This document shows positions 10,720 to 25,508 of a stretch of DNA of 64,000 bases, in pieces. The stretch is from NCBI RefSeq assembly GCF_000513895.2, contig NZ_CP165782.1:3377501-3441500 (forward strand), given 5' to 3'. Each line of letters starts with the position of its first letter. Position 1 is the first letter of the stretch. The translations under genes and the position numbers were made by a program. This DNA comes from Ensifer sp. WSM1721. GTDB lineage: Bacteria > Pseudomonadota > Alphaproteobacteria > Rhizobiales > Rhizobiaceae. Below the pieces are notes generated by a model, which saw only the letters and a list, made by a program, of their open reading frames with translations, did not search any database and had not been told where the DNA came from.

Positions 10720-11607
10720 ATGTCTTTCGAGTTAACATTTGAGTGCGCGCTCGACCTGCGCTGCGCTGTCGCCGAGAGCCCCGTCTACGACGAGCGCCGC
10801 AATTGCCTCTTCTTCGTCGATATTGGCCGCGGCGCGGTTCATCGTGCCGATCTGTCCGGCATGGGCCATATCGAATGGACCTTCGACCATGGCGCCTGCA
10901 GCATCGGCCTTGCCCGGTCCGGGCGCCTGGTGCTGGCGCAGCGCGACCGCGTCGTTCTGTTCAATCCCGACAACGGCGCGATCACCGTTGAGATCGCCAC
11001 GATCGAGACGGAAAGGCGCGATACGCGCCTCAACGACGGCAAGGTCGGGCCGGACGGCGCGTTCTGGGTCGGCACCATGCATGATGTCACCGCCGATCGC
11101 CGGCCGGTTGCGGCCCTCTATCGCGTTTCGCCGACCGGCGAGGTGGAGCGCAGGATCGACGATATCATCTGCTCCAACGGTCTCGCCTGGAGCGGCGACG
11201 GTACGCTTCTCTTTCACTCCGATTCGCGCGGCCCCTGGATCGACCGTTGGCGCTTCGATCCCGCGACGGGCACGCTCTCCGAGCGCCTGCGTCTCGCCAT
11301 GCTCGACGAAGCGAGCGGCCGCCCGGACGGAGGGGCCGCGGATGTGGAGGGCAATTATTGGAGCGCCGGCGTCTCTGCCGGCATCCTCAATCGCTTTTCG
11401 CCCGAGGGCCGGCTGATAGAGGCGCATCCCTTCCCGGTGCCAGCGCCGACCATGCCCTGTTTTGCGGGGTCGGACTTGAAGACGCTCGTCGTCACCTCTT
11501 TGCGTCCGGTGGGGGTCGGAGAGGAAAGCCGATCCGGCGGAATTTTTGCCACCCGAAGTCCCGTGGCCGGCGTCGCCGTCCATCGCTTCGACGACCGCGG
11601 GCTCTAA
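10720..11607 (+). CDS. SMP-30/gluconolactonase/LRE-family lactonase
   Basis: A 295-residue six-bladed beta-propeller of the SMP-30/gluconolaconase family, usual length about 290-300. Metal-site motifs visible are AVAESPVYDE (glutamate ligand), RLNDGKVGPDGAFWVGTM (Asn/Asp) and CSNGLAWSGDG (Asn). The family opens sugar lactones to aldonic acids. ATG 10720 is chosen because homologous sequence begins there; upstream in-frame codons back to 10618 give an unrelated tail. It is divergent from a DapA-family lyase. Together with the dehydratase it would form lactone to aldonate to 2-keto-3-deoxyaldonate to cleavage. The sugar is unknown. Confidence 0.88.
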   Translation: MSFELTFECALDLRCAVAESPVYDERRNCLFFVDIGRGAVHRADLSGMGHIEWTFDHGACSIGLARSGRLVLAQRDRVVLFNPDNGAITVEIATIETERRDTRLNDGKVGPDGAFWVGTMHDVTADRRPVAALYRVSPTGEVERRIDDIICSNGLAWSGDGTLLFHSDSRGPWIDRWRFDPATGTLSERLRLAMLDEASGRPDGGAADVEGNYWSAGVSAGILNRFSPEGRLIEAHPFPVPAPTMPCFAGSDLKTLVVTSLRPVGVGEESRSGGIFATRSPVAGVAVHRFDDRGL

Positions 11608-12101: not shown

Positions 12102-13181
12102 TTACATCGCCCTGCCGTCGGGGCCGAAGACGTGGCAGCGCGCAGGATCGAAGTGGACGGCGAGATTGGTGCCGCGCTCGACCTTCTGCTGACCTTCCAG
12201 CGCGACGGTCAGTTGCTGCCGATCCGGCGTGATGCCGTAAAGCATGGTTTCGCCGCCGAGATTCTCTACGATCTCGACATTGATCGGCGCGAGCGTGATG
12301 CCGTCCTCGCGGGCGGAAAGGTGCTCCGGCCGAATGCCGAAGGTGACGTCCTCGCCGCGCGTTGCGGCAGCGAGACGCCGAGGCAAGCGGATGGTTCCGC
12401 CGCAGACTTCGATCGTGGTCTCGTTTTCCGTCACGCCCGCGATGCGCGCCTTTAGGAAATTCATCTTGGGGCTGCCGATGAAGCCGGCGACGAAGCGGTT
12501 GACGGGATTGTTGTAGAGATCGAGCGGCGCGCCCACCTGCTCGACCCGGCCCGAATTCAAGACGACGATCTTGTCGGCCATGGTCATGGCTTCGACCTGG
12601 TCATGGGTGACGTAGATCATCGTATTGCCGAGGTCGCGGTGGAGTCTCGAAATCTCGACGCGCATCTGCACCCGGAGCTCGGCGTCGAGGTTGGAAAGCG
12701 GCTCGTCGAAGAGGAAGATGCGCGGCTCGCGCACGATCGCCCGGCCGATCGCCACGCGCTGGCGCTGGCCGCCCGAAAGCGCCTTGGGTTTGCGGTCCAA
12801 GAGCTTCTCGATCTGCAGGATCTCCGCGGCGCGGCGCACTTTCGGTTCGATCTCCGCCCTCCTGTAGCCCGCCGTTTCGAGGCCGAAGGCGAGATTCTTG
12901 TAGACCGACATATGCGGATAGAGCGCATAGGACTGGAACACCATGGCGATGCCGCGCTTGGCCGGCGCCACCTCGTTCATCCGGTCGTTGTCGAGCATCA
13001 GCGTGCCGCCGGAAATTTCTTCGAGCCCGGCGATCATGCGCAGCAAGGTTGACTTGCCGCAGCCGGACGGACCGACGAAGACGGCGAATTCGCCGGGATC
13101 GATGGTGAGGTCGATGCCGTGGATCACATCGAGCGCGCCATAGCGTTTCTCGACCTTCTGAAGAACGACGCTGGTTGCCAT
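12102..13181 (-). CDS. ABC transporter ATP-binding protein (UgpC/MalK-type, carbohydrate importer)
   Basis: A 359-residue ATPase that powers sugar import with the permeases encoded upstream. Walker A GPSGCGKST is near residues 37-45, the signature [14 protein letters not shown] near 134, Walker B FLFDEPLSNLD near 155, and the H-loop YVTHDQ near 190. The C-terminal third is the MalK-type TOBE regulatory domain (GIRPEHL). It is the last gene of a minus-strand operon that begins at 18446. The 26-base gap from the upstream oxidoreductase gene fits co-transcription. Confidence 0.93.
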   Translation of the reverse strand: MATSVVLQKVEKRYGALDVIHGIDLTIDPGEFAVFVGPSGCGKSTLLRMIAGLEEISGGTLMLDNDRMNEVAPAKRGIAMVFQSYALYPHMSVYKNLAFGLETAGYRRAEIEPKVRRAAEILQIEKLLDRKPKALSGGQRQRVAIGRAIVREPRIFLFDEPLSNLDAELRVQMRVEISRLHRDLGNTMIYVTHDQVEAMTMADKIVVLNSGRVEQVGAPLDLYNNPVNRFVAGFIGSPKMNFLKARIAGVTENETTIEVCGGTIRLPRRLAAATRGEDVTFGIRPEHLSAREDGITLAPINVEIVENLGGETMLYGITPDRQQLTVALEGQQKVERGTNLAVHFDPARCHVFGPDGRAM

Positions 13182-13207
13182 TGCAATTCCTCCCTACGGC
13201 TTTCGCC

Positions 13208-14281
13208 CTATCTCGTATTCGCGCGCCAATTAGCGTATTTCGGGCTCTCCGGCCCGATCGGCAGCGATATTTCCTGCCCCGTATCGGCGGACTGGTAGAT
13301 CGCGGTGACGAGTTCCAGCGCCTGGCGCGCGTCCTTCGTCGTAACGGGGAGCGGTCCCCTGCCGCTGAGAAACGCGTGGAAATGCGCCATCTGGGTGGTG
13401 AAGCGTGGCGCGACCGGCTGCCAGTCGCCGATCACCTCGTCGATCCGCGCCTGCACCGCCGCGTTGGCGGCGATGATCTTCCAGGGATCCTTGCCCGGTG
13501 CATAGGGCTCGTGGCTGCTTTCGAAGGTGACGTTCTCGAAATGCAGGCGCAGGCGGCTGATCTGCTCCTGCGAGCCGAGCGTGCAGGAAAGCGACACGAA
13601 GGCGCCGTTTTGCATGAGCAGGCTCGCCGAGGCGCAATCCTCCACCTCGATGTCGTTGACCCGCGTCGCCACCCGCCCGAACACTTTCGAAACGGGGCCG
13701 AGGAGATGCAGCATCATGTCATGCAGGTGCAGCGCGTGAGTGACGAGCACGCCGCCGAGTTCCGTCTCCCACTTGCCGCGCCAGGGGACGGCGTAATATT
13801 CCGGGGTGCGCAGCCAGAAAGTCTCGACCGACCCGACATAGGGCTTGCCGGCGATGCCGGCCTCGATGATCCGCTTCGCCTTCTCGATGCCGTCGCCGTA
13901 GCGATACTGAAAGATCGGCATCAACACGCCTTTCACGTGTTTCTCCGCCTCTATGATCCGGTCGACGCCCTTGAGCGAGCCGGTGAGCGGCTTTTCGCAG
14001 ATCACGTGCTTGCCGGAAGCAAGAGCATCCAGCACCTGCTCCAGATGGATGCCGGGCGGCGTGCAGATATCGATAATCTCGATCGTCTCGTCGGCAATGA
14101 GTTCCTTGAACGAGGTCGTCCGCTTCTCGATGCCGAATTCGTCGCCGACCTCGTTCAGCCGCTCCTCGTTCAAATCGCAGAGGGCTTCGACGCGGAACTT
14201 GTCCGGATGCGGCAGATAGCCCTCGACGATGTGCGACCGGCCGATGCCGCAGCCGATGACGGCGACTGTCTTTACACTCAT
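13208..14281 (-). CDS. Gfo/Idh/MocA-family oxidoreductase (first of pair)
   Basis: A 357-residue NAD(P)-dependent dehydrogenase. The N-terminal Rossmann motif is VIGCGIGRSH; the family lysine motif is CEKPLTG (EKP) near residue 97. The C-terminal alpha/beta domain holds the substrate-site histidine region GGVLVTHALHLHDMML. Members oxidise or reduce sugars, inositols and keto-sugars. ATG 14281 overlaps the stop of the upstream oxidoreductase by 4 bases (ATGA), so the two are coupled and may act on one substrate or as successive steps. A longer open frame running on to 16075 is the frame extending past this start and is not coding. Confidence 0.9.
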   Translation of the reverse strand: MSVKTVAVIGCGIGRSHIVEGYLPHPDKFRVEALCDLNEERLNEVGDEFGIEKRTTSFKELIADETIEIIDICTPPGIHLEQVLDALASGKHVICEKPLTGSLKGVDRIIEAEKHVKGVLMPIFQYRYGDGIEKAKRIIEAGIAGKPYVGSVETFWLRTPEYYAVPWRGKWETELGGVLVTHALHLHDMMLHLLGPVSKVFGRVATRVNDIEVEDCASASLLMQNGAFVSLSCTLGSQEQISRLRLHFENVTFESSHEPYAPGKDPWKIIAANAAVQARIDEVIGDWQPVAPRFTTQMAHFHAFLSGRGPLPVTTKDARQALELVTAIYQSADTGQEISLPIGPESPKYANWRANTR

Positions 14282-15297
14282 GTCAGATCTTCCCGGTTCT
14301 GTTCGGCGAGCGCCTGGGCGGAAAGGGCAAGCTCCATCGCCTTGAAGCAGCGTTCCTGCGGCATGGCCGTTTCGGTCCTGTCGCGGATGTCGGCGAGGAG
14401 CTGGCGACCGAAAGGCAGCTCGACGGCGGAGCAGTCGATATGTTGGACGCCGTTTCGGTCGGCGAGGAACAGATGATTGCCGCCCTCGCGCCCCGCGAGA
14501 TCGACGGTCTTGCGCACCTCGATCGTGCCGGTCGTGCCGACGATGAAGAGCCGACCGTCGCCCCAGGTCGGCATGCCGTCCGGGGTGAGCCAGTTCACGT
14601 GGATCATGCCGGTGGCCCGGCCCGTCGACAGATGGATGTTGCCGGTATCCTGCAGCTCCGGCCTGTCGGGCACGCTGAGGTTGTCGACATTTGCCGAAAG
14701 AATGGTCGCGTCGCTGGCGCCGGTGAAGAACAGGAACTGCTCGCATTGGTGCGAGGCGATGTCGGTCAAGATGCCGCCATAGTCGGCGCGGCGGAAAAAC
14801 CAGTCGGGCCGCGTCTCGCGGCGGAGCCGGTGCGGACCGAGGCCGACGAGATGCACGACCTCGCCGATCGCGCCGGCGGCGACGAGCTCGCCGGCCTTGA
14901 CCGTCGCAGGGCTCTCGAAATGTTCTGAATAGAGGATCGAGAAGATGCGTCCCGTCTCGGCCTGGACGCGGCGCACCTTGGCGAGCTGGTCGAGGCTCGT
15001 CATGCCCGGCTTGTCGACGAGCACGTCCTTGCCGTGCTGCATGGCACGGATCGCCAGTTCCGCCCGCTCGGCTGAAACGGCGGCCGAGACGACGAGGCCG
15101 ATGCTCTTGTCCTCGAGGATTTCCTCGAGTGTCGTAATACGCGGCGCATCCTTGTAGACGCCCGTGAATTCCGCGGCCAGCGCATCGTCCTTCTCGTGGA
15201 AGCCTACGAGGCGGGCGCCGGCCCTCAGCAGGCAGTTGACCTGGCCGTAGATGTGGTTGTGGTTGAGCCCGACGGCGGCGAAGCGCAATTCGTCCAT
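14278..15297 (-). CDS. Gfo/Idh/MocA-family oxidoreductase (second of pair)
   Basis: A 339-residue relative of the adjacent oxidoreductase but clearly divergent. The N-terminal Rossmann region reads FAAVGLNHNHIYGQ, without the classic GxGxxG. The EKP position reads VDKPGM near 99. The C-terminal domain contains YGGILTDIASHQCEQFLFFTG with the usual D-x-x-x-H pattern. ATG 15297 is preferred; an in-frame TTG at 15309 has its GGAG too close. It lies 21 bases after the permease stop and overlaps the next gene by ATGA. The modified nucleotide motif makes cofactor use less certain. Confidence 0.85.
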   Translation of the reverse strand: MDELRFAAVGLNHNHIYGQVNCLLRAGARLVGFHEKDDALAAEFTGVYKDAPRITTLEEILEDKSIGLVVSAAVSAERAELAIRAMQHGKDVLVDKPGMTSLDQLAKVRRVQAETGRIFSILYSEHFESPATVKAGELVAAGAIGEVVHLVGLGPHRLRRETRPDWFFRRADYGGILTDIASHQCEQFLFFTGASDATILSANVDNLSVPDRPELQDTGNIHLSTGRATGMIHVNWLTPDGMPTWGDGRLFIVGTTGTIEVRKTVDLAGREGGNHLFLADRNGVQHIDCSAVELPFGRQLLADIRDRTETAMPQERCFKAMELALSAQALAEQNREDLT

Positions 15298-15318
15298 GGG
15301 TAATCTCAAGCTCCGTGG

Positions 15319-16206
15319 TCAGCGTTTCATGCCGGTGGTGGCGATGCCTTCGATCAGAAGGCGCTGGAAGAACAGGAAGAAGAAGAACACGGGGACGAGC
15401 GACAGCGTCGACATGGCGAAGAGGCCGCCCCAGTCGGAGGTGCTGCTCGAGTCGACGAAGGTCCTGAGGCCAAGCTGGATCGTGTAGGTGTTCATGTCGT
15501 TCAGGTAGATGAGCGGCCCGAAGAAATCGTCCCAGGTCCAGATGAAGGAGAAGATCGCCGCCGTCGCCAGAACGGGAAGCGAGAGCGGCAGCATGATCTT
15601 CCAATAGATGCGCCACGGACCGCAGCCGTCCATCATCGCCGCCTCGTCGAGCTCGCGCGGAATGCCGCGGAAGAACTGCACCATCAGGAAGATGAAGAAG
15701 GCGTCGCTCGCGAGGAACTTCGGCACGACCAGCGGCAGGAAGGTGTTCACCCAGCCGAGATTGAGGAAGAGCACATATTGCGGAATGAGCGTCACGTGAT
15801 AGGGGATCATCATCGTCCCCAGCATGATCGCGAACCAGAAATTGCGGCCTGCAAAACGCAGGCGAGCGAAGGCGTAGGCCGCAAGCGAGCAGGCGACCAC
15901 ATTGCCTATGACCGTCAGCACGGAGACGACGAGCGAGTTCCAGGTGAAGCGCCCGAAGCTCACGTCGAGCCCGAACCAGCCGCGCACATAAGAGGCGAAA
16001 TCGACCGACGAAGGCCAGAGCGAGGTCGAGGCGAAGATCTCGTCCTCCGGCCTGACGGAAGCGGAGATCATCCACAAGAGCGGATAGACCATGGCGATCG
16101 ACGCAGCGATCAGGCCGGCGTGGATGAGGACCGATCCGACGGGGCTACGACGGCCGGGCGGTGCAGATGGTGGGGCGGTTACCGAGCTCATGGTCGCATC
16201 AGTCAT
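15319..16206 (-). CDS. Carbohydrate ABC transporter permease (MalG/UgpE type)
   Basis: A 295-residue inner-membrane permease with six predicted helices: the first near 27-45, then a cluster of five from about 90 to 285. The cytoplasmic EAA loop that docks on the ATPase reads ELDEAAMMDGCGPWRIYWKIMLPLSLP. It overlaps the upstream permease gene by 8 bases. With that permease it forms the channel of a CUT1-family sugar importer. Confidence 0.92.
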   Translation of the reverse strand: MTDATMSSVTAPPSAPPGRRSPVGSVLIHAGLIAASIAMVYPLLWMISASVRPEDEIFASTSLWPSSVDFASYVRGWFGLDVSFGRFTWNSLVVSVLTVIGNVVACSLAAYAFARLRFAGRNFWFAIMLGTMMIPYHVTLIPQYVLFLNLGWVNTFLPLVVPKFLASDAFFIFLMVQFFRGIPRELDEAAMMDGCGPWRIYWKIMLPLSLPVLATAAIFSFIWTWDDFFGPLIYLNDMNTYTIQLGLRTFVDSSSTSDWGGLFAMSTLSLVPVFFFFLFFQRLLIEGIATTGMKR

Positions 16207-17155
16207 CGTAGTGCACCCAGTAACGAGAGGTCAGGAACGAAAAGGCCGTGAACAGGCCGATGATCAGCACGAGGATCCAGGCGAGCGCCGAGGCGTAGCC
16301 CATGCGGAAGTTCCCGAAAGCCTCCTGATAGAGATAGAGCGTGTAGAACAGCGTCGAATTGATCGGCCCGCCGGTGCCGCCGGAGATGATGAAAGCGGGG
16401 GTGAAGGCCTTGAAGGCGTCGATCGTCTGCACCACCGCATTGAAGAAGATGACCGGCGTCAAGAGCGGCAGCGTGATCTTGTAGAACTGCCGGAATTTGG
16501 ACGCTCCGTCGAGGCTTGCCGCCTCGTACATGTCGGTCGGGATTTGCCTGAGGCCGGCGAGGAAGATGATCATCGGCGAGCCGAATTGCCAGACGCTTAG
16601 GACCACCAGCGTCCAGATCGAATAGTTCGGATGCGAGATCCAGCTCGGGCCTTCGATGCCGAACTGGGCGAGCAGGCTGTTGATCAGGCCGTCGCCGGCA
16701 AAGAGCTGCCGCCAGAGCACGGCGATCGCGACGCTGCCGCCGAGCAGCGACGGCAGGTAGAAGAGCGCGCGGTAGAAGGTGAGACCTTTCACGCCGCGGT
16801 CGAGAAGAAGGGCGACGAGCAGCGCGAAGGTGAGCTTGAACGGCACCGACAGCACGACATAGAGAAAAGTCACCTGCATCGCGGCGGCGAATTTCGGGTC
16901 GGCCGTCGCGATGCGGACGTAGTTGGCGGTTCCGACCCATTCCGGCGTGCGGATCAGGTCGAAGCTCGTGAAAGAGAGATAGAGAGAGGCGATGGCAGGC
17001 CCGAGCGTCAGGCCGAAGAAGCCGATGAGCCACGGCAACAGGAACATGTAGCCGGCGCCGTGCTTCGTCCAGAGGCTGGCCCAGCGGCCCTGTGCGGCGG
17101 GGCGCGCCTGGGCGCCCCCACCGATCGCGACAGCGGAATCCTGCACAGCCGCCAT
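16199..17155 (-). CDS. Carbohydrate ABC transporter permease (MalF/UgpA type)
   Basis: A 318-residue permease with about six membrane segments, the first near 36-58 (YMFLLPWLIGFFGLTLGPAI). The EAA loop reads DMYEAASLDGASKFRQFYKITLPLLTP. The short N-terminal extension before the first helix, rich in Ala/Gly/Gln, is common in this subfamily. Its start lies 4 bases after the binding-protein stop and its end overlaps the second permease, so the three are one transcript. Confidence 0.92.
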   Translation of the reverse strand: MAAVQDSAVAIGGGAQARPAAQGRWASLWTKHGAGYMFLLPWLIGFFGLTLGPAIASLYLSFTSFDLIRTPEWVGTANYVRIATADPKFAAAMQVTFLYVVLSVPFKLTFALLVALLLDRGVKGLTFYRALFYLPSLLGGSVAIAVLWRQLFAGDGLINSLLAQFGIEGPSWISHPNYSIWTLVVLSVWQFGSPMIIFLAGLRQIPTDMYEAASLDGASKFRQFYKITLPLLTPVIFFNAVVQTIDAFKAFTPAFIISGGTGGPINSTLFYTLYLYQEAFGNFRMGYASALAWILVLIIGLFTAFSFLTSRYWVHYDD

Positions 17156-17159
17156 CTCC

Positions 17160-18446
17160 TTAGCCTCGCGACAGGATTTGTGTGACCTCGTTCACCAGCG
17201 TCTCGCCGCCCTGCTTCGCGTCGAGCTGACCGAAGGCCACCTGCTCGGCGACACTACGCAGAGCCAACTCCGCCTCGCCGGCGCCCGACGGAGGCGGCGG
17301 CGGCAGGTCGCCGACGAGCGATCCGAGTCCGGAGACATAGTCGAGCGCAGCCCGCCCGAGTTCATCGAGCGACGGCGCGAGCGCCTCGCGCACGGAGGCC
17401 GATTCCGGCACGCCGCGTTCGACTCCGAGGATCTTGGCCGCTTCCGGATCCTTGACGAAGAAGTTGACATATTTGGCGCCGAGTTCCGGGTCGCTGCTCT
17501 TGGCCGATACCGAGAAGAACATCGATGGCTTGCGGTAGTGGCCGCCCTTGGCATCCTTGTTGATCAGCGCATGGCTTTTGAGCACGATCTTGTCTTTGTT
17601 GATCGCCTGATAGCCGACGAGCTGGTTGGAATGGGCGTAGGACGTCGCCGCCTTTCCGAGCGACAAGGGACTCGTCTCGATATTGAACTGGTCGAGCGCC
17701 TGTATATCCGCCGGCACGCAGGCCTTGTCCTCGCGCATCTTCTGCCACATGGCGAACCATTCGGCGCCGTCGTTCGCGTCATAGGCGATCTTGCCGTCCG
17801 CGGTGAAGAGCGCCTTGCCGCGCTGGCGAAGCCAGTTTTCGAGGAGCGGTTCGACACCGCTGCCGTCCGAGAGGCCGAAATAGCCCTTGCGCTTTCCGGC
17901 CTTGGTGATCTCGACACCCATGCGGGCGAGTTCTTCCCAGGTGGTCGACGGCGTCGGCAGGTCGACGCCGGCTTCCTCGAAGGCGACCGTATTGACCATC
18001 ATCGCCGTCGAATTGGCGCCGAGGCTGATGCCGTAGAGCTTCCCGTCGACGCTGCCGCCCTTGATCTGCACGTCGTCGAAATCCTCGACTTTCAGCACCG
18101 AGCCGAGATAGCTGTCGAGCGGTGCGAGCGCACCGCGCCGGGCGTATTCGACGATATAGCGGTAGTCCATTTGGATGACATCGGGCGCATTGCCACCGGC
18201 AACCTGGGTTGCCAAGCGCGGCCAGTAGTCGCTCCAGCCCAGAAATTCACCGTTGATGTCAACGCCGGGATTCGCCTTCTTGAAAAGCTCGCTCACCTTA
18301 TTGGTGCGGTCGGCGCGGGTCTGCGATCCCCACCAGAGCAGGCGTAGCCGCGCCTCCTGCGAAAACGCGCGCGGCGCGAACGCCGCGTAGGAAAGAAGTG
18401 CCGCTCCTCCTGCGAGCACCGTACGTCTGCTGATGCGATGCGTCAT
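17160..18446 (-). CDS. Carbohydrate ABC transporter substrate-binding protein, Tat signal
   Basis: A 428-residue periplasmic binding protein of the extracellular solute-binding family 1. The N-terminus MTHRISRRTVLAGGAALL carries a twin-arginine motif (SRRTVL), suggesting Tat export. The mature chain begins after about AFS-QEA. Typical features are LRLLWWGSQTR, VIQMDYRYIVEYARRGALAPLD and TWEELA. ATG 18446 is chosen: AGGAGGAAC lies just upstream and the signal peptide begins there. It is the first gene of the operon, and a TetR-type operator lies about 75-90 bases upstream. Ligand unknown. Confidence 0.93.
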   Translation of the reverse strand: MTHRISRRTVLAGGAALLSYAAFAPRAFSQEARLRLLWWGSQTRADRTNKVSELFKKANPGVDINGEFLGWSDYWPRLATQVAGGNAPDVIQMDYRYIVEYARRGALAPLDSYLGSVLKVEDFDDVQIKGGSVDGKLYGISLGANSTAMMVNTVAFEEAGVDLPTPSTTWEELARMGVEITKAGKRKGYFGLSDGSGVEPLLENWLRQRGKALFTADGKIAYDANDGAEWFAMWQKMREDKACVPADIQALDQFNIETSPLSLGKAATSYAHSNQLVGYQAINKDKIVLKSHALINKDAKGGHYRKPSMFFSVSAKSSDPELGAKYVNFFVKDPEAAKILGVERGVPESASVREALAPSLDELGRAALDYVSGLGSLVGDLPPPPPSGAGEAELALRSVAEQVAFGQLDAKQGGETLVNEVTQILSRG

Positions 18447-18518
18447 TTGTTCCTCCTCCCTCGGGAGCGCCTCCACAACGCTCCGTGTCATCGTCGTCTT
18501 GTTGAGTCCTCTTGCATT

Positions 18519-18537
18519 AAATAACTAATTGGTTACA
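18519..18537 (-). promoter_or_regulatory. TetR-type operator upstream of the ABC transporter operon
   Basis: Read on the minus strand this is GTAACCAATTAGTTATT, nearly identical to the palindrome at 19385-19402 (GTAACCGTTTAGTTACT). The two copies flank the TetR gene and face the two operons on either side, the expected layout for a local repressor. Confidence 0.7.
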
Positions 18538-18592
18538 AATTATGGGCAAGCAATGATCGTGTCAAGCACTTGTGTGAAATGCTGTCATTATC

Positions 18593-18611
18593 TTGTAATG
18601 TATCTTTACAA
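18593..18611 (+). promoter_or_regulatory. Dyad TTGTA-N9-TACAA upstream of the TetR gene
   Basis: Five-base perfect arms (TTGTA 18593-18597, TACAA 18607-18611) with a nine-base spacer. This matches the dyads at 10578-10598 and 24126-24148. It lies between the divergent binding-protein and TetR genes. Confidence 0.5.
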
Positions 18612-18659
18612 AGCCGCATCGAGTGCCGCCAAAGGCAAGATGTGCCGGAGGTGCTGTGA

Positions 18660-19331
18660 ATGGACAAGATGCAAGAGGACGTCAGGCGCAGGGCGGGCGG
18701 TCGTGCCGAGCGGCCCACGCAGCGCGATCCCGAGCGCACGCGCGCCTCGATCCTCGCCGCCGCCACGAAGGAGTTTGCGGAGAACGGGATCGGCGGGGCG
18801 CGGGTCGACGCGATCGCCGAGCGCGCGGGCACCAACAAGCGCATGCTCTATCATTATTTCGGCGACAAGGAGCAGCTTTACCTCGCCGTTCTGGAAGAGG
18901 CCTATGTCGGCATCAGAACGGCGGAAAAATCGGTCAATCTCAGTGACTTGGAGCCGGAGCAAGGCATAGCGGAACTCGCCATGTTCACCTGGAGGTATTT
19001 CCTGGAGCACCCGGAATTCCTGAGCCTGCTCGGCACCGAGAACCTGCATCGCGCCCGTTGGCTGCGCCAGTCGACGCGGCTCAAGGAACTGCATTCGCAC
19101 TTCATCGGCAAACTGTCCGACTTGCTCGACCGCGGCAAGGCGAAGGGTCTCTTCCGGGCGGACATCGACCCGCTGAACGTCTATCTGACCATCGCGGCGC
19201 TCGGTTATTTCTACGTCTCGAACCAGTACACGCTCTCGACCATCTTCGGCCGCGACCTCATGGACGAGGCCAATATCGAGGCCTGGGAGCGTCACATCGT
19301 CCACGTGACCCTGGCATCCATCAGGCGCTGA
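18660..19331 (+). CDS. TetR/AcrR-family transcriptional regulator
   Basis: A 223-residue regulator. The N-terminal HTH spans about 25-70 (RASILAAATKEFAENGIGGARVDAIAERAGTNKRMLYHYFGDKEQLY); the C-terminal ligand domain resembles the TetR C-33 type. GGAGGTG 6 bases before ATG 18660 supports the start. It is divergent from the ABC transporter operon and followed in the same direction by the plus-arm catabolic genes. Near-identical palindromes lie in both flanking promoter regions, so it is the best candidate regulator of the locus. The inducer is presumably the imported sugar or a product. Confidence 0.92.
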   Translation: MDKMQEDVRRRAGGRAERPTQRDPERTRASILAAATKEFAENGIGGARVDAIAERAGTNKRMLYHYFGDKEQLYLAVLEEAYVGIRTAEKSVNLSDLEPEQGIAELAMFTWRYFLEHPEFLSLLGTENLHRARWLRQSTRLKELHSHFIGKLSDLLDRGKAKGLFRADIDPLNVYLTIAALGYFYVSNQYTLSTIFGRDLMDEANIEAWERHIVHVTLASIRR

Positions 19332-19355
19332 ATCGATCCGATGTCGTTTTTTCTG

Positions 19356-19402
19356 TTGACAAGTGTGTTTTTCGTCTGTCACAAAGTAACCGTTTAGTTA
19401 CT
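19356..19402 (+). promoter_or_regulatory. Promoter and TetR-type operator of the plus-arm catabolic operon
   Basis: TTGACA at 19356-19361 is a consensus -35; the -10 is weak (around 19379-19384). The palindrome AGTAAC-N6-GTTACT at 19385-19402 overlaps the expected transcription start. A near copy lies at 18519-18537 before the transporter operon. Confidence 0.7.
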
Positions 19403-19454
19403 GGCTTGGGAGGGCTGGTCCGCTCCCTTGGAAAGCCTGGCAGGAGGAGACCGC

Positions 19455-20603
19455 ATGCCGCGTTTGGGGATCATATTGCACGGCGTCACCGGCCGGATGG
19501 GATATAACCAGCATCTGGTGCGCTCTATTCTGGCCATCCGCGATCAGGGCGGGCTAACGCTCAAATCCGGTGAGCGGCTGGAGATCGATCCGATCATTGT
19601 CGGGCGTAACCGCGACAAGATCGAGCAATTGGCCAAGCGTCATAACATCGCTCGCTGGTCGACCGACCTCGACGCCGCACTCGCCGATGCAAACGATCAG
19701 ATATTCTTCGATGCCGGCACGACGCTGATGCGTGCCGAGCTGATCGGCAGGGCGCTCGACGCCGGCAAGCACGTCTATTGCGAGAAGCCGATTTCGGATG
19801 ATCTGAGGACCGCGGTGAAGCTCGCCAGAAAGGCGCGGAGCTCAGGCCTCAAGCACGGCGTGGTGCAGGACAAACTGTTCCTGCCCGGCCTGCGCAAGCT
19901 CGCGCTCCTCCGGGACTCCGGCTTCTTCGGAAAGATTCTCTCGGTGCGCGGCGAATTCGGCTACTGGGTCTTCGAGGGTGACTGGGGCGTTCCGGCGCAG
20001 CGGCCCTCGTGGAACTATCGCAAGCAGGACGGCGGCGGCATCATCCTCGATATGCTCTGCCACTGGCGCTATGTGCTCGACAATCTCTTCGGAGAGGTTA
20101 AGGCCGTCTCTTGCCTCGGTGCAACGCATATCCCGAGCCGCATCGACGAGCAGGGCCGCGCCTATGACTGCGACACCGACGATGCGGCTTACGCCACCTT
20201 CGAGCTCGAAGGTGGCGTGGTCGCCCAGATCAATTCCTCCTGGGTGGTCAGAGTGCGTCGCGACGATCTCGTCACCTTCCAGGTCGACGGAACGCACGGC
20301 TCGGCCGTCGCCGGCCTCACGAAGTGCTGGACCCAGCACCGCGTCAACACGCCGAAACCGGTGTGGAACCCGGATCAGCCGCAGACGATCGATTTCTATA
20401 AGACCTGGGACGAGGTGCCGGACACTCAGATCTTCGACAACGGTTTCAAGGCACAGTGGGAGATGTTCCTGCGCCATGTCGCCGAGGACGCTCCCTGGCC
20501 CTACGGCCTCGAGGCCGGCGCAAAGGGTGTCCAGCTTGCCGAACTAGGCCTCAAATCCTGGGCCGAGCGCCGCTGGCTCGACGTTCCGGCGCTGGAGTTC
20601 TGA
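19455..20603 (+). CDS. Gfo/Idh/MocA-family oxidoreductase
   Basis: A 382-residue protein with a Rossmann start LGIILHGVTGRMGYNQHLVRSIL, an EKP motif CEKPISD near residue 109, and a C-terminal domain with DGGGIILDMLCHWRYVLDNLFG. The long N-terminal loop GVTGRMGYNQH is unlike the usual GxGxxG spacing and may mark a distinct subfamily. ATG 19455 is supported by AGGAGGAG; an in-frame TTG at 19428 lacks one. It is the first gene of a five-gene plus-strand set and sits behind the TetR operator. It may introduce or remove a keto group on the sugar. Confidence 0.88.
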   Translation: MPRLGIILHGVTGRMGYNQHLVRSILAIRDQGGLTLKSGERLEIDPIIVGRNRDKIEQLAKRHNIARWSTDLDAALADANDQIFFDAGTTLMRAELIGRALDAGKHVYCEKPISDDLRTAVKLARKARSSGLKHGVVQDKLFLPGLRKLALLRDSGFFGKILSVRGEFGYWVFEGDWGVPAQRPSWNYRKQDGGGIILDMLCHWRYVLDNLFGEVKAVSCLGATHIPSRIDEQGRAYDCDTDDAAYATFELEGGVVAQINSSWVVRVRRDDLVTFQVDGTHGSAVAGLTKCWTQHRVNTPKPVWNPDQPQTIDFYKTWDEVPDTQIFDNGFKAQWEMFLRHVAEDAPWPYGLEAGAKGVQLAELGLKSWAERRWLDVPALEF

Positions 20604-20606
20604 GCC

Positions 20607-21770
20607 ATGGTCAGCGTCTCTCTTCCCCTCGACGGCAGGCTCGTTCGCTACGAACTCAAGGGCCGGCCGGTTCCGCTCAAGCAACGTGATTCGGCGGCAT
20701 TTCCGCGGGTCGCCTTCGCGGCGGCCCACGTCGTCGCCGATCCGCTGGCAGATAACGATCCGTGGCTGACGCCGGCGATCGATTGGGAGCGCACGCTTGC
20801 CTTCCGCCATCGCCTCTGGGATCTCGGGCTTGGCGTCGCCGAATCGATGGATACGGCGCAGCGCGGCATGGGGCTCGGCTGGCTCGAGGCGCGTGAGCTG
20901 ATCCGCCGCTCGCTTGCCGAAGCGCGCGGCCGATCGGGGGCGCTGATCGCCTGCGGCGCCGGCACCGATCATCTGGCGCCCGGGCCGGACGTGTCGATCG
21001 ACGATATCCTCAAGGCCTATGAGAGCCAGATGGAGGCGATCGAAGCCGAAGGAGGCCGCATCATTCTGATGGCGAGCCGGGCGCTCGCCGCCGCGGCAAG
21101 GGGGCCCGAGGATTATATCCGCGTCTACGACCGCGTTCTCTCGCAGGTGAAAGAGCCGGTGATCATCCACTGGCTCGGCGAGATGTTCGATCCGGCGCTC
21201 GAAGGCTATTGGGGCAATGCCGACCACATGGAGGCGATGAAGACCTGCCTTTCGGTGATCGAGGCGCATGCCGAGAAGGTCGACGGCATCAAGATCTCGC
21301 TCCTTTCCAAGGAGAAGGAGATCCTGATGCGGCGGCAATTGCCGAAAGGCGTGCGCATGTTTACGGGCGACGACTTCAACTACGCCGAGCTCATTGCCGG
21401 TGATGCCGAAGGATATTCGGACGCGCTGCTCGGCATTTTCGATGCGATTGCGCCGGTCGCCTCTGCGGCGCTCGAGGCGCTCGGCGAGGGGCGGAACGGC
21501 GAATTCTTCGAGCTGCTCGAACCGACGGTGCCCTTGTCGCGCCATATCTTCAAGGCGCCGACGCGTTTCTATAAGACCGGCGTCGTCTTCCTCGCTTATC
21601 TGAACGGCCTACAGGATCATTTCATCATGATCGGCGGCCAGCAGAGCGCCCGCTCGCTCGTCCATCTCGCCGAGCTCTTCCGTCTGGCGGACAAAGCCGG
21701 CGCTCTCGCCGATCCGGATCTCGCGGTTGCGCGGATGCAGCGCGTACTCGCCGTGCACGGTGTTGCGTGA
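20607..21770 (+). CDS. DUF993-family TIM-barrel protein (DapA-like)
   Basis: A 387-residue protein that reads like the DUF993 family, distant relatives of dihydrodipicolinate synthases. Recognisable segments are ESMDTAQRGMGLGW, IACGAGTDHL, EPVIIHWLGEMFDPALEGYWG and VDGIKISLLSKEKE, with a barrel lysine in GIKIS. The family has no well-established reaction; an aldolase or retro-aldol role is inferred from fold and neighbours. It begins 4 bases after the oxidoreductase stop, and its TGA overlaps a GTG of the next gene's frame. Confidence 0.8.
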   Translation: MVSVSLPLDGRLVRYELKGRPVPLKQRDSAAFPRVAFAAAHVVADPLADNDPWLTPAIDWERTLAFRHRLWDLGLGVAESMDTAQRGMGLGWLEARELIRRSLAEARGRSGALIACGAGTDHLAPGPDVSIDDILKAYESQMEAIEAEGGRIILMASRALAAAARGPEDYIRVYDRVLSQVKEPVIIHWLGEMFDPALEGYWGNADHMEAMKTCLSVIEAHAEKVDGIKISLLSKEKEILMRRQLPKGVRMFTGDDFNYAELIAGDAEGYSDALLGIFDAIAPVASAALEALGEGRNGEFFELLEPTVPLSRHIFKAPTRFYKTGVVFLAYLNGLQDHFIMIGGQQSARSLVHLAELFRLADKAGALADPDLAVARMQRVLAVHGVA

Positions 21771-21778
21771 GGCGCGGC

Positions 21779-23197
21779 ATGAGCGAAGCGCCGCGTGTCA
21801 GGCTCATCGAAGCGGAGATATTTGAGCGTCCGGTCGATTTCCGCTTCCCCTTCCGTTTCGGGGCGGCGCGTGTCGAGCGCGCTCCACAGGCCTTCGTTCG
21901 GGTTCGGATTGTCGACCAGTCCGGGCGCTCTGCCGCCGGCTGGGCGGCCGAGATGATGATGCCGAAATGGTTCGACAAGAGCCCGACGCTTTCGCCGGAC
22001 GACAATGTCGGGCAGCTTCTCACGTCGCTGCGTCTGGCGATCGAAGGGCTCAAATCCCAGTCCGCGAATACCGCCTTCGGCCTTCACGCCGCCGCCGAGG
22101 CCGATCATCACCGGATGGCGGCGAACGTAGGCCTTCCTGCGCTGGTCGCATCCTATGGCCTGGCGCTCGTCGACCGCGCCATCATCGACGCGCTGTGCAG
22201 GCTCGAGGCAACGAGTGCTGCCGCGGCCGTCAAGCACAATCTCCTCGGCATCACCGACGCAACCGCGCCCGATCTGGCGGGCTTCGATCTGCCGGGTTTT
22301 CTCTCGCGGATGGAGCCTTCGCCGCGCCTTGCGGTACGGCATACGATCGGTCTCGCCGACGCGCTTTCGGCAGCCGATATCGAGCCGGCGCAGCGACTGG
22401 ACGACGGCCTGCCGCAGACGTTGGAAGAGGTGATCGCCGCCTATGGTCACCGCTATTTCAAGATCAAGGTGTCCGGCCGTCCCGAACAGGATGTGGAACG
22501 TTTGCTCGCCATCACGGCGGTACTCGACCGTGCCGTCGGCGACTACCGGACGACGCTCGACGGCAACGAGCAGTTCGAAAGTGCCGACGCCGCGGTTGAG
22601 CTCCTCGAACGTGTGCAGAGAGAGCCGCGTCTCGCAAGGCTCCGCCACTCGCTTCTCTTCTTCGAACAGCCGATAGCGCGGGCCGAGGCGCTGTCGCGAT
22701 CGGTCGCCGCCGTAAGCGAACGAATACCGTTGGAGATAGACGAGTCCGACGGCGATGTCGGAGCGTTCCTGCGCGCCCGGGAGCTCGGCTATGCGGGCAT
22801 TTCGTCGAAGTCCTGTAAGGGCTTCTATCGGTCGCTGCTCAATCGCGCCCGGGTCGAGAAGTGGAATAGCGCGATCGGCTCTTCCCGCCATTTCATCTCG
22901 GCCGAGGACCTGACGACCCAGGGCGGCATCGGCCTGCAGCAAGACCTTGTCCTTGCCGCCCTCGTCGGCGCCGGGCACATCGAGCGCAACGGCCATCACT
23001 ATGTCGACGGCATGGCCGGCGCTCCGGCGAGCGAACAGGCCGCCTATCTCGCCGCCCATGGCGATCTTTACGAGAGCGGGAATGGCCGCGTGCGACTCGC
23101 GATCAAAAAGGGCGAGATCAGCTTTGCGTCCGTGTTGAAGGCGGTCGGTCTCGGCTCCGCGGTCGAGCCGGACTGGGCGGCTGTGTTGCGCTCATGA
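21779..23197 (+). CDS. Enolase-superfamily protein (mandelate racemase/muconate lactonizing-like)
   Basis: A 472-residue protein with the catalytic landmarks of the enolase superfamily in order: KIK in YFKIKVSG (about 229), metal ligands in TLDGNEQF (about 263), FFEQPI (about 297) and EIDESDG (about 323), and a second lysine in SSKSCKG (about 346). These fit alpha-proton abstraction, as in sugar-acid dehydratases and epimerases. The N-terminal capping domain is longer than usual for the family (typically 360-400 residues in all). ATG 21779 follows GAGG; GTG 21767 is an alternative. It overlaps the next gene's alternative start. Possibly a sugar-acid dehydratase in the local pathway. Confidence 0.78.
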   Translation: MSEAPRVRLIEAEIFERPVDFRFPFRFGAARVERAPQAFVRVRIVDQSGRSAAGWAAEMMMPKWFDKSPTLSPDDNVGQLLTSLRLAIEGLKSQSANTAFGLHAAAEADHHRMAANVGLPALVASYGLALVDRAIIDALCRLEATSAAAAVKHNLLGITDATAPDLAGFDLPGFLSRMEPSPRLAVRHTIGLADALSAADIEPAQRLDDGLPQTLEEVIAAYGHRYFKIKVSGRPEQDVERLLAITAVLDRAVGDYRTTLDGNEQFESADAAVELLERVQREPRLARLRHSLLFFEQPIARAEALSRSVAAVSERIPLEIDESDGDVGAFLRARELGYAGISSKSCKGFYRSLLNRARVEKWNSAIGSSRHFISAEDLTTQGGIGLQQDLVLAALVGAGHIERNGHHYVDGMAGAPASEQAAYLAAHGDLYESGNGRVRLAIKKGEISFASVLKAVGLGSAVEPDWAAVLRS

Positions 23198-23217
23198 GAA
23201 ATGGGGGAGGGAATCCA

Positions 23218-24042
23218 ATGCAGGTCGAGGGCCTTTCGATCAATCTTGCGACGATCCGCGAGCAGTGCGGCTTCGTCGAGGCCGTGGATATCTGCCTCAA
23301 GCACGGGATCACGGCGATCGCTCCCTGGCGCGACCAGGTGGCCGCGATCGGCCTCGAGGAGGCGGCCCGCATCGTCAAGGCCAACGGGCTCAAGCTCACC
23401 GGGCTTTGCCGCGGCGGCTTCTTTCCGGCCGGCGACGCGGCCGGGCGGGAAAAGACCCTTGACGACAACAGACGCGCCATCGACGAGGCGGCGGAGCTCG
23501 GTGCGGATTGTCTCGTGCTCGTCGTCGGCGGCTTGCCCGGTGGGTCGAAGAATATCGATGCGGCCCGGCGCATGGTCGAGGAGGGCATTGCCGCGGTCCT
23601 GCCGCATGCCCGCGCGGCGCAAGTGCCGCTCGCGATCGAGCCGCTGCACCCGATGTACGCCGCGGATCGTGCCTGCGTGAACACGCTCGGCCAGGCGCTT
23701 GACATCTGCGAAATGCTCGGCCGAGGCGTCGGTGTCGCGATCGACGTCTATCATGTCTGGTGGGATCCGGACCTCGCCAATCAGATCGCGCGCGCAGGCA
23801 GAATGGAGGCGATCCTTGCCCACCACATCTGCGATTGGCTGGTCCCGACCAGGGATATGCTCACGGACCGCGGCATGATGGGCGACGGCGTCATCGACCT
23901 CAAAGGCATCCGGCGCCGGATCGAAGCGGCCGGTTTCCATGGACCGCAGGAGGTGGAGATCTTTTCGGCCGAGAACTGGTGGAAGCGTCCGGCCGAAGAG
24001 GTGATCGCCACCTGTGTAGAGCGTTATCGAAGCTGCTGTTGA
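23218..24042 (+). CDS. Sugar phosphate isomerase/epimerase-like TIM-barrel protein (AP endonuclease family 2)
   Basis: A 274-residue xylose-isomerase-like barrel. Metal-binding segments are AIEPLHPMY (Glu), AIDVYHVWWDPDL (Asp/His), AHHICDW and EVEIFS (C-terminal Glu). Relatives include sugar epimerases, hydroxypyruvate isomerase, inosose dehydratase and keto-sugar lyases. ATG 23218 is chosen for GGGAGGG 6-8 bases upstream; ATG 23194 overlaps the previous stop (ATGA) and is in frame. Together with Gfo/Idh enzymes this fold often acts on keto-sugars, a plausible role here. Confidence 0.85.
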   Translation: MQVEGLSINLATIREQCGFVEAVDICLKHGITAIAPWRDQVAAIGLEEAARIVKANGLKLTGLCRGGFFPAGDAAGREKTLDDNRRAIDEAAELGADCLVLVVGGLPGGSKNIDAARRMVEEGIAAVLPHARAAQVPLAIEPLHPMYAADRACVNTLGQALDICEMLGRGVGVAIDVYHVWWDPDLANQIARAGRMEAILAHHICDWLVPTRDMLTDRGMMGDGVIDLKGIRRRIEAAGFHGPQEVEIFSAENWWKRPAEEVIATCVERYRSCC

Positions 24043-24125
24043 GAAGGGTGCTCGGCTATGTTCCTTACAAGTCGGTTCGCCAGATTGCCGACGGTCGCCT
24101 TGACTTTGGTGAAATCTGATCGGTA

Positions 24126-24148
24126 ACATGTATTATAAATTTACATGT
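24126..24148 (+). promoter_or_regulatory. Dyad ACATGTA-N9-TACATGT upstream of Gfo/Idh gene
   Basis: Perfect 7-base arms with a nine-base spacer, 59 bases before the ATG at 24207. The core TGTATT.T.AATTTACA also matches the dyad at 10578-10598, and the layout matches 18593-18611. It implies that the downstream gene has its own promoter within the same regulon. Confidence 0.6.
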
Positions 24149-24206
24149 CAGTATCGTTACCGCCGGTCGCGCGGCTTCACCCCAGACAGGATTGCGTGAG
24201 GAAATC

Positions 24207-25508
24207 ATGGACAACAAGCGTCGCTTTGCGCTGGTCGGCATCGGCAATCGCGGAACCACCATGTGGGGCAAGGACCTTCTCGCCGGCTGGCGCGGCCATG
24301 TCGATCTCGTCGCCATTGCCGATACGAATTCGCTGAGGGCCGAGCGGGCCCGCACGATGATCGCCACCAATGCGCCGATCTACGGCAATGTCGACACGAT
24401 GCTTGCCGAGGCGCGCCCGGATCTCGTCATCGTCTGCACCCCGGACGACACGCATGACGACATTGTCGTCAAGGCGCTCGAATCCGGCGCCGATGTCATC
24501 ACCGAAAAGCCGATGTCGACGACCGTCGAGAAGATCCGCCGCATCCTTGATGCCGAGAAGCGGACGGGCCGCCGGGTGGACGTCTCCTTCAATTACCGCT
24601 TCGCGCCAACGGCGGCGCGCATCAAGGAACTGCTCGCCGCCGGCGAGATCGGCCGCGTCACCTCGGTCGACTTCCATTGGTATCTCGATACAAGGCATGG
24701 AGCCGACTATTTCCGCCGCTGGCACGCCTATACGGAGCGCTCGGGCAGCCTCTTCGTCCACAAGGCGACGCACCATTTCGATCTCCTGAACTGGTATCTC
24801 GACAGCGATCCGGACGCGGTCACCGCCTTTGCCGACCTGCAGATGTACGGCCGCAAGGGCCCGTTCCGTGGGCCCCGCTGCAAGCTCTGTCGCCACAAGG
24901 GCGAGTGCGACTTCTATCTCGACCTCGAAGCCGATCCGTTCCTCGACGCGCTTTACGAGGAACCCTCCGAAATCGACGGCTATTTCCGCGACGGCTGCGT
25001 CTTCCGCGAGGACATCGATATCCCCGACACGATGGTCGCGAATATCCGCTACCGCAACGACGTTCACGTCTCTTACTCGCTCAACACCTTCCAGCCGATC
25101 GAGGGCCACCACATCGCCTTCAACGGCACGAAGGGCCGGATCGAGCTGCGCCAGTACGAGGACCAGCCGTGGGAGACGCCGCCGGAGGATGTTATCCTGC
25201 TCGTCCGCAATTTCCCCGCGGGCACGCCGGCGATGGAGCGCATCACGGTGCCGCATTTCCCGGGCGGGCACTATGGCGGCGACGATAGGTTGCGGAACAT
25301 GCTCTTTAAACCCGGCGCAAGCGACCCGCTCGGACAGCGGGCGGGCGCCCGCGCCGGCGCCATGTCCGTCCTCTGTGGCATCGCGGCACTTGAAAGTTCG
25401 CGCACGGGCAGGCTCGTGCGCCTCGCCGACCTGATGCCCGAATTGTTCGAGGATGAAGCGCAGCCGGTTCGTGAGGTTGCCGTACAATCGGCCGCCGCGC
25501 GTCGCTGA
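24207..25508 (+). CDS. Gfo/Idh/MocA-family oxidoreductase (long form)
   Basis: A 433-residue dehydrogenase. The Rossmann motif is LVGIGNRGTTMWG and the EKP motif is TEKPMST near residue 98; the C-terminal domain has GSLFVHKATHHFDLLNWYL. A cysteine-rich insert, CKLCRHKGECDF (about 229-240), is unusual and might bind metal or stabilise the fold. GAGGAAATC precedes ATG 24207, which is preferred over TTG 24192. It lies 164 bases after the previous gene behind its own operator-like dyad. It is the fourth Gfo/Idh enzyme of the locus. Confidence 0.87.
   Translation: MDNKRRFALVGIGNRGTTMWGKDLLAGWRGHVDLVAIADTNSLRAERARTMIATNAPIYGNVDTMLAEARPDLVIVCTPDDTHDDIVVKALESGADVITEKPMSTTVEKIRRILDAEKRTGRRVDVSFNYRFAPTAARIKELLAAGEIGRVTSVDFHWYLDTRHGADYFRRWHAYTERSGSLFVHKATHHFDLLNWYLDSDPDAVTAFADLQMYGRKGPFRGPRCKLCRHKGECDFYLDLEADPFLDALYEEPSEIDGYFRDGCVFREDIDIPDTMVANIRYRNDVHVSYSLNTFQPIEGHHIAFNGTKGRIELRQYEDQPWETPPEDVILLVRNFPAGTPAMERITVPHFPGGHYGGDDRLRNMLFKPGASDPLGQRAGARAGAMSVLCGIAALESSRTGRLVRLADLMPELFEDEAQPVREVAVQSAAARR

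Follow-up and report, generated by a model that had tools for sequence, protein, structure and literature searches.

A two-armed DUF993 locus of Ensifer sp. WSM1721 that may serve the phosphate-free oxidative catabolism of an acidic sugar

Gene content of the locus

The 64,000-nucleotide stretch of Ensifer sp. WSM1721 analysed here (the window) lies at 3.38-3.44 Mb on contig 1 of a 6.33 Mb genome of four contigs, and harbours at 12102-25508 a locus of twelve genes in two divergent arms, every named gene having an intact reading frame. The left arm (minus strand) encodes a solute-binding protein (SBP), the permeases PermA and PermB, the Gfo/Idh/MocA oxidoreductases Gfo2 and Gfo1, and the ATPase UgpC. 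The right arm, on the plus strand, encodes a TetR regulator, Gfo3, a DUF993 protein, an enolase-like protein, the AP-endonuclease-2-type barrel APe1, and Gfo4 (Table 1). The divergent SBP and TetR genes are 168 bases apart. Inside the arms, genes are separated by 3 to 26 bases or overlap by 4 to 8, with the exception of TetR/Gfo3 (96 bases) and the interval before Gfo4 (149 bases). The Gfo1 frame sits within a longer mechanical open reading frame, and for Gfo3 an alternative ATG start at 19455, judged by eye, is likely too.

Ten of the twelve genes were scanned and matched the expected Pfam families; the two permeases, outside the family scan, were assigned from sequence and conserved synteny. 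With SBP_bac_1, two permeases, and a MalK/UgpC-type ATPase with OB and TOBE domains, the left arm encodes an ATP-binding cassette (ABC) sugar importer of CUT1 type. A sequence-only reading had listed a complete importer, four Gfo/Idh/MocA enzymes, DUF993, an enolase relative and an AP-endonuclease-type barrel around one TetR gene, with no sugar kinase; frames, Pfam and synteny bear out this list, and no sugar kinase was found among the ten genes scanned with Pfam.

Since DUF993 aligns with PDB 4dnh, which is SMc04132 of Sinorhizobium meliloti 1021, over 380 residues at 89% identity, and APe1 matches 3ju2 (SMc04130) with 576 bits, the locus corresponds to S. meliloti SMc04129-SMc04140. These two tags are anchored by the search tools and the others by gene order, by which the ATPase would be SMc04140. 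The arrangement recurs in relatives and is therefore not due to chance.

Table 1. Features of the locus, with positions in the window
Feature	Position	Strand	Basis
UgpC/MalK-type ABC ATPase of CUT1 importer	12102..13181	-	Pfam ABC_tran, OB_MalK, TOBE_2; NCBIfam UgpC 484 bits, cut-off 432
Gfo1, Gfo/Idh/MocA oxidoreductase	13208..14281	-	Pfam; nearest solved relatives 3q2k, 3q2i
Gfo2, Gfo/Idh/MocA oxidoreductase	14278..15309	-	Pfam; nearest solved 3u3x (693 bits), 2p2s
CUT1 permease B	15319..16206	-	sequence, synteny
CUT1 permease A	16199..17155	-	sequence, synteny
CUT1 solute-binding protein	17160..18491	-	SBP_bac_1; nearest solved 4r6k, YesO 5z6b (210 bits)
Predicted TetR operator TAACTAATTGGTTA	18522..18535	.	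SBP/TetR divergent promoter region
TetR regulator	18660..19331	+	Pfam TetR_N, TetR_C_29; RutR-like, under RutR cut-off
Second, weaker operator-like palindrome GTAACCGTTTAGTTAC	19386..19401	.	upstream of Gfo3; 3 mismatches to consensus
Gfo3, core Gfo/Idh/MocA oxidoreductase	19428..20603	+	Pfam; nearest solved 3oqb (611 bits)
DUF993 (PF06187), DHDPS-fold	20607..21770	+	Pfam 619 bits; SMc04132 (PDB 4dnh) orthologue
Enolase-superfamily protein	21767..23197	+	MR_MLE_C 40 bits, cut-off 29.4; muconate-lactonizing-enzyme-like fold
APe1, AP-endonuclease-2 TIM barrel	23194..24042	+	AP_endonuc_2; SMc04130 (PDB 3ju2, 3qc0) orthologue
Gfo4, Gfo/Idh/MocA oxidoreductase, Cys-rich insert	24192..25508	+	Pfam; travels with CUT1 arm

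Conserved core and exchange of transporters

The DUF993 family is common, with members in 67 of 199 genomes of the bacterial family and in 36 of 398 genomes drawn across the phylum. We compared 108 DUF993 loci with a minimum length of 9 kb (77 from the set of 80 named loci, 20 further stretches, 10 annotated plasmid regions, and the window), which are not independent species, as L033 and L034, for example, come from one genome. Shorter loci, among them L099, L129, and L142, were left out, and gene presence was counted by tblastn with fixed identity limits. Among the gene families from automatic clustering, F38 and F79 were rejected as antisense shadows, and F49, F100, F124, and F146 were judged the same by their position.

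This comparison of DUF993 and Gfo/Idh neighbourhoods, which the sequence-only reading had proposed, found Gfo3 in 84 of the 108 loci, directly upstream of DUF993 and on the same strand in 84 of 84. APe1 was present in 80 of these loci, TetR in 70, and the enolase-like protein in 35. The conserved core is Gfo3-DUF993-(enolase)-APe1 and is smaller than the whole locus, with the enolase-like protein as an optional part. The whole set had been treated as one pathway; it holds as a unit, and only Gfo3-DUF993-APe1 is its conserved core. Actinobacteria also hold the core, as Gfo3-DUF993-glycerate kinase in Arthrobacter (L085) and Gfo3-DUF993-APe1 in Nonomuraea (L169); in Streptomyces (L170) DUF993 was the only one found among the proteins searched for.

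The transporters vary around this core. The 84 loci include 30 with the CUT1 SBP, 20 with TctA, and 12 with an NMT1-type SBP; CUT1 SBP and TctA occur together in three (L043, L102, L105), and CUT1 and NMT1 in two (L124, L125). Gfo1, Gfo2 or Gfo4 was detected in 28 loci, the CUT1 SBP being present every time. Because the transporter of the core is swapped between CUT1, TctABC, and NMT1-type systems, an acidic substrate is suggested. In the simplest reading, CUT1 and Gfo1/2/4 handle a conjugate, and TctABC or NMT1 systems take up the acid broken down by the core.

Co-occurrence, operator and expression of the two arms

Among the 199 family genomes, Gfo3 (E <= 1e-80) was found in 21, with a total of 22 copies, of which 21 lie no more than about 250 bases from DUF993, the exception being that of genome G043. 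Gfo4 (E <= 1e-100) was found in 16, all among the 21 with Gfo3. The binding protein (E <= 1e-70) was present in 26 and the enolase-like protein (E <= 1e-50) in 25; both also occur outside core loci.

The 18-base version of the palindrome TAACTAATTGGTTA is the sole match in the window at up to 3 mismatches (0.01 expected), and the 14-base form is the sole site in the genome at up to 1 mismatch. Genome rarity is no argument for an operator, because the genome-wide search gave no excess over the reversed control (1 versus 1 and 1); the argument is conservation. Allowing up to 2 mismatches, we counted sites in the 69 other loci that have both TetR and Gfo3, within 300-base intervals upstream of seven genes (TetR, Gfo3, SBP, TctC, enolase, NMT1 or APe1). 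These intervals held 69 sites in 85,428 bases, and the rest of the same loci 9 in 1,322,849 bases. At least one site was present in 44 of the 69 loci, corresponding to 24/24 CUT1-only, 9/15 TctA-only, 3/3 CUT1 plus TctA, 1/10 NMT1-only, and 0/2 CUT1 plus NMT1 loci, and to 7/15 with none of these transporters; the consensus was read from CUT1 loci, so that the count leans towards them, and the 0/2 depends on the intervals, as sites just behind TetR in L124 and L125 fall outside. The lower counts outside CUT1 loci could be due to drift of the operator sequence. Within 350 bases of TetR a site was found in 36 of the 69 loci, and L086, L087, and L101 have one on either side of TetR, the putative binder of the palindrome.

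In PMC12542648, SMc04132, SMc04133, SMc04135, SMc04138, and SMc04139 of S. meliloti share one proteome module and are undetected in low phosphate; the five proteins drop by log2 1.07 to 3.65 on TY in phbC phaR versus phbC, and its table names them in general terms only. By gene order, they derive from both arms. In the searched literature, tags of SMc04129-SMc04140 appeared in two papers only, that on PhaR and one on a regulatory network, and SMc04131 and SMc04137 were not found.

Importer-arm genes without the core (L194, L195, L198, L202, L205) and cores with other transporters would be expected if two independent neighbouring loci shared the regulator region by accident. Such an accident is highly improbable, given that close Gfo4 orthologues fall 16/16 within the 21 genomes with Gfo3, that the operator is shared, that proteins of both arms change jointly in S. 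meliloti, and that both arms lie on one strand in L043 and L034. The two arms are probably a single regulon, and the earlier view of one unit around one TetR stands on the company that Gfo4 keeps and on the conserved promoter palindrome.

DUF993 and the enolase-superfamily protein

A fold search placed DUF993 in the dihydrodipicolinate synthase (DHDPS) fold, with S. meliloti MosA (2vc6) among the matches. K229 is invariant in 33/33 and 39/39 sequences; H188 and D255-D256 are invariant, too. By strand order, not superposed coordinates, K229 lies within strand 225-231, the sixth strand of the barrel, on which the superfamily has its Schiff-base lysine. Because of this fold and the invariant K229 on strand six, DUF993 is probably a class I aldolase or lyase. 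The barrel named by the sequence-only reading is confirmed and made more specific, as a DHDPS fold with a conserved Schiff-base-type lysine.

DHDPS carries a Tyr at strand five. Compared with the DHDPS/N-acetylneuraminate lyase superfamily (class I aldolases, including MosA), DUF993 is longer (about 387 versus about 295 residues), shares 13-17% identity, and has a His at the strand-five Tyr position. In Pfam, DUF993 matched only PF06187 and not PF00701, and no NCBIfam model matched. The window protein at 9603-10556, which by eye resembled a DHDPS relative, has no Pfam match at 1e-5, and profile comparison between it and DUF993 found nothing, so the superfamily placement of DUF993 rests on the fold search. 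In agreement with the statement that DUF993 lacks an established reaction, neither the name nor a reaction assignment was found in the searched literature, which covers few subscription journals.

The enolase-like protein has K232, K234, D265, E300, D325, K348, and K351 invariant in 28/28 sequences. With strands assigned by eye, it shows the KxK on strand two, the three metal ligands, and the Lys on strand six of the muconate lactonizing enzyme (MLE) subgroup, from which it differs by its 476 residues, extra conserved motifs, and lack of an assigned reaction. No PDB sequence matched at 0.01; its fold is nearest to muconate lactonizing enzymes, tied with dipeptide or N-acyl amino acid epimerases. 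This fold, the transporter swaps to TctABC and NMT1, and the RutR-like TetR, which would fit a ring-derived acid, are consistent with a cyclic or aromatic-type organic acid as substrate, the CUT1 version serving its glycoside. We regard such a substrate as quite unlikely, as the scan of ten window genes turned up neither a ring oxygenase nor a CoA ligase, and glycerate kinases in some relatives together with CUT1 or CUT2 importers point to sugars.

Gfo/Idh/MocA oxidoreductases and APe1

The four Gfo proteins are not recent copies, since the closest pair reaches 31.6% identity (over 133 residues), and for one pair BLAST gives no match. All four look catalytic, because each possesses an EKP or DKP triad followed downstream by a His motif. 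The Gfo1 relatives 3q2k and 3q2i are presumably WlbA, a UDP-uronate 3-dehydrogenase. DgpA and glucuronide-3-dehydrogenase are among the solved relatives of Gfo4, and DgpA among those of Gfo1. APe1 is a predicted metal-dependent isomerase, epimerase or eliminase.

Annotation as an inositol or levoglucosan dehydrogenase locus was rejected, as the NCBIfam models tested for such enzymes scored far under cut-off. The best Gfo scores were 101.4 and 66.3 bits for the inositol dehydrogenase models TIGR04380 and NF052679 (cut-offs 355 and 540), 95.4 bits for levoglucosan dehydrogenase NF052479 (650), and 32.8 and 39.4 bits for the glycoside/disaccharide 3-dehydrogenases NF058561 and NF058563 (750 and 650). 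APe1 scored 28 bits with the 5-keto-L-gluconate epimerase IolO, NF041099 (300).

AP-endonuclease barrels occur in cyclitol pathways. A pathway for inositol, inosamine or another cyclitol, as in the iol or moc (rhizopine) systems, has further support: inositol dehydrogenase models rank first or nearly first among the NCBIfam matches of the Gfo proteins, and MosA appears among the fold matches of DUF993. Nevertheless, the inositol dehydrogenase and IolO scores are far too low, no kinase or other ring-opening family occurs among the ten scanned genes, and the hydrolases of families GH88 and GH28 beside the importer of relatives do not fit; a cyclitol pathway is therefore very unlikely.

Gfo/Idh enzymes with a metal barrel are also the hallmark of non-hydrolytic glycoside cleavage by oxidation and beta-elimination. 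There, a Gfo enzyme would oxidise the glycoside at C3, APe1 would eliminate the aglycone, a further enzyme would hydrate the 3-keto-glycal, and a Gfo enzyme would reduce it to the free sugar, leaving the remainder to DUF993 and the enolase-like protein. The nearness of DgpA and glucuronide-3-dehydrogenase to Gfo4, and of DgpA to Gfo1, would fit. According to PMC10628242, the corresponding Agrobacterium tumefaciens operon encodes GlycDH, a further oxidoreductase (Gfo), and two sugar-phosphate-isomerase-type proteins (AtOGE, AtHYD), and shares with the window locus a Gfo-type oxidoreductase, a TIM barrel of that type, and the lack of sugar phosphorylation. In contrast, the ten scanned genes include no flavin dehydrogenase such as GlycDH and one such barrel only, so that the full set described there (C3 dehydrogenase, eliminase and hydratase barrels, and Gfo reductase in one operon) is not present among them; the window locus adds DUF993, the enolase-superfamily protein, and three more Gfo enzymes. 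With the 3-dehydrogenase and levoglucosan scores far under cut-off, and the core without Gfo1/2/4 in most TctABC/NMT1 loci, we find this route unlikely.

Relatives of the importer arm and carbon fate

GH88 enzymes (the Pfam family includes GH105) have unsaturated uronyl residues as their targets; those of GH28 attack polygalacturonan or rhamnogalacturonan. Three relatives of the importer arm (L198, L202, L205) have, without the core, the order GH88, SBP, PermA, PermB, UgpC, Gfo4-like (42-43% identity), Gfo2-like (47-50%), and Gfo1-like (41-44%). L198 additionally carries GH28, and L206 has GH88 and the importer, with no Gfo matches in the fetched stretch; the Pfam identification of both hydrolases comes from L198 alone, and the other GH88 genes share 73-81% identity with that of L198. 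In L194 and L195 the importer is accompanied by Gfo genes, and both hydrolases are missing.

After 4r6k and 5z6b, the next solved relatives of the binding protein are 4ovj, 4ry1, and 2uvg, the last of which is TogB; binding proteins of YesO/TogB type take uronate oligosaccharides as ligands. Because GH88 and GH28 occur with importer relatives, and YesO and 2uvg are among the nearest solved binding proteins, the importer ligands are likely uronate-containing, pectin-type fragments, judging by homology. With the pectin-fragment import operons (GH88/GH105; YesO-, TogB-type binding proteins) the locus shares a homologous binding protein and permeases and, with L198, L202, and L205, homologous Gfo genes; it differs in that the genome has no GH88 and the importer is joined to the DUF993 core.

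A DUF2264 gene lies beside an SBP homologue (35-42%) in L196, L197, L199, L203, L204, L207, L208, and L209, five of which also have a D-2-hydroxyacid dehydrogenase and another AP-endonuclease-type barrel. Besides the G000:C2:589933 region (L196) and L199, the pair was observed in L089-L091, L093, L095, L096, L101, L118, and L192. Several of these clusters add a LacI regulator, the dehydrogenase, and the barrel; in the Rhizobium and Agrobacterium loci the DUF2264 cluster lies close to the DUF993 cluster.

A second DUF993 copy in the same genome, 60% identical, lies at G000:C1:3230084-3247713 (L214, L032) with GlyK, GMC, SDR, GMC-like, CUT1 genes, ALDH, enoyl-CoA hydratase, CoA-transferase, Gfo5, and a LacI-type regulator, DUF993 being divergent. 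SMc04259 was dropped as a candidate for serving this locus, being a beta-diglucoside binder beside other genes. Glycerate kinases, from two Pfam families, lie near DUF993 in 7 of 24 non-Gfo3 loci. Because of these kinases, GlyK included, DUF993 reactions are suggested to yield glycerate-level C3 units, though only faintly for the present locus.

Other DUF993 clusters and neighbouring genes

A third type of DUF993 cluster (L081-L084, L166-L168) has an acyl-CoA-dehydrogenase-like protein, SDR, an AP-endonuclease-type barrel, and electron transfer flavoprotein (ETF) subunits, and mostly adds GMC, CoA-transferase, enoyl-CoA hydratase, and glycerate kinase. It occurs on rhizobial, Paracoccus, and one Roseateles plasmid, and mixes sugar and acyl-CoA enzymes oddly. 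DUF993 lies beside dehydrogenases in this type (SDR, acyl-CoA-dehydrogenase-like, ETF) and in the second (Gfo5, LacI, GMC, glycerate kinase), as in the present locus, and several have sugar importers; they differ by their oxidoreductases and separate DUF993 clades, and have no assigned function either.

Clusters that look like a sister pathway (L182, L183, L185-L188, L190, L191, L200) have no DUF993 gene call and encode a long DHDPS-like protein (F24), an NAD-epimerase-like protein, NMT1-type/TctABC genes, and an enolase-like protein, the last found in each genome, though outside the gene calls of L186 and L187. Most have a further AP-endonuclease barrel.

Next to the DUF993 locus in the window, 4233-11607 is possibly a separate aldonate locus with sugar-acid type genes: a phosphoketolase (4233-6689, minus), an IlvD/EDD dehydratase (6837-8579, minus), an FCD/GntR regulator (8618-9361, plus), the no-Pfam protein (9603-10556, minus), and an SMP-30 lactonase (10618-11607, plus). 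Directly downstream of the DUF993 locus, 26100-28373 encodes a heavy-metal P-type ATPase with an N-terminal HMA domain, to which no link was seen.

Proposed pathway and significance

We propose, with a probability of about 0.45, that the locus serves the uptake of an acidic sugar and its phosphate-free breakdown by oxidation; the most likely substrate is a glycoside or disaccharide that contains a hexuronate, of the pectin or glucuronide type. The conjugate would enter through the CUT1 importer, and Gfo1, Gfo2, and Gfo4 would carry out NAD-linked oxidation (possibly reduction back) of the conjugate or its uronate unit. Gfo3 would oxidise the released acid, which relatives probably import directly via TctABC or NMT1-type ABC transporters. 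APe1, a metal-binding barrel, may isomerise, epimerise or eliminate, and DUF993 would split the carbon chain via a Schiff base on K229, like class I aldolases, into small fragments, probably with glycerate as the end point in some relatives. One TetR, responding to an intermediate, would control both arms via the shared operator. We infer the substrate class, the reactions, their order, and TetR binding from these comparisons; the best label is an uncharacterised, phosphate-free variant of oxidative acid-sugar catabolism.

For the substrate, the sequence-only reading had named a glycoside or uncommon sugar; the glycoside is kept, and a neutral sugar is less likely than an acidic, uronate-type sugar or its glycoside. 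Known pathways also brought up glucosylglycerate, sulfoquinovose, apiose, ascorbate, and 4-O-methylglucuronate as candidate substrates, with the results speaking neither for them nor against them. Its route through 3-keto or acid intermediates is probably right in being oxidative and phosphate-free, with a keto-glycoside step only possible, for Gfo1/Gfo2/Gfo4. It correctly saw a carbohydrate locus with no substrate assigned. The searched literature, in which subscription journals are mostly uncovered, yielded no homologous locus tied to a known sugar.

Several points weigh against the proposal, besides the null genome-wide operator search and the lean of the operator count. No operator was counted in 25 of the 69 loci, nine of the ten NMT1-only loci among them. 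In one genome (G043, 76% complete), L201 (G043:C409) has Gfo3 and then APe1 at 2757-4804, with no DUF993 match on the stretch, a gap that may stem from gene loss in nature or from the assembly. More distant Gfo4 homologues (40-43%) exist without the core, 27 of the 84 Gfo3 loci have no CUT1 SBP, TctA or NMT1 SBP in the fetched stretch, and importers of the TctABC and NMT1 types are not confined to sugar acids. With His for the strand-five Tyr, the chemistry of DUF993 may differ from that of DHDPS, and its model is weak at 83-87. Glycerate kinase lies near DUF993 in only 3 of the 84 Gfo3-type loci (L079, L085, L114). The pectin link comes from importer-arm relatives that share 36 to 66% identity; this genome has no GH88, and GH28/GH88 relatives are absent from core loci, save a weak GH28 match in L101 (29%). 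As GH88 and Gfo genes co-occur in relatives, the Gfo enzymes are no simple hydrolase replacement. No ligand, mutant or enzyme assay for genes of the locus was found in the searched literature.

More tentatively, DUF993 may represent a family of its own among the carbon-carbon lyases of class I (Schiff-base) type, new on the DHDPS fold and with His188 for Tyr, that cleaves an oxidised unphosphorylated acid sugar. Gfo3-DUF993-APe1 would then be a portable three-gene cassette in Proteobacteria and Actinobacteria fed by varied transporters, and the other DUF993 clades (acyl-CoA-dehydrogenase-like with ETF; Gfo5 with GMC) would do the same cleavage on other sugars.

The DUF993 structure has been solved since 2012 (4dnh), its reaction unassigned in the searched papers. 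DUF993 now has a fixed set of partner genes, a predicted site for a regulator, and a small number of candidate substrate classes. S. meliloti 1021 carries orthologues, so the function is directly testable there. If the proposal is true, the locus would add phosphate-free use of acidic plant sugars by soil and root bacteria.

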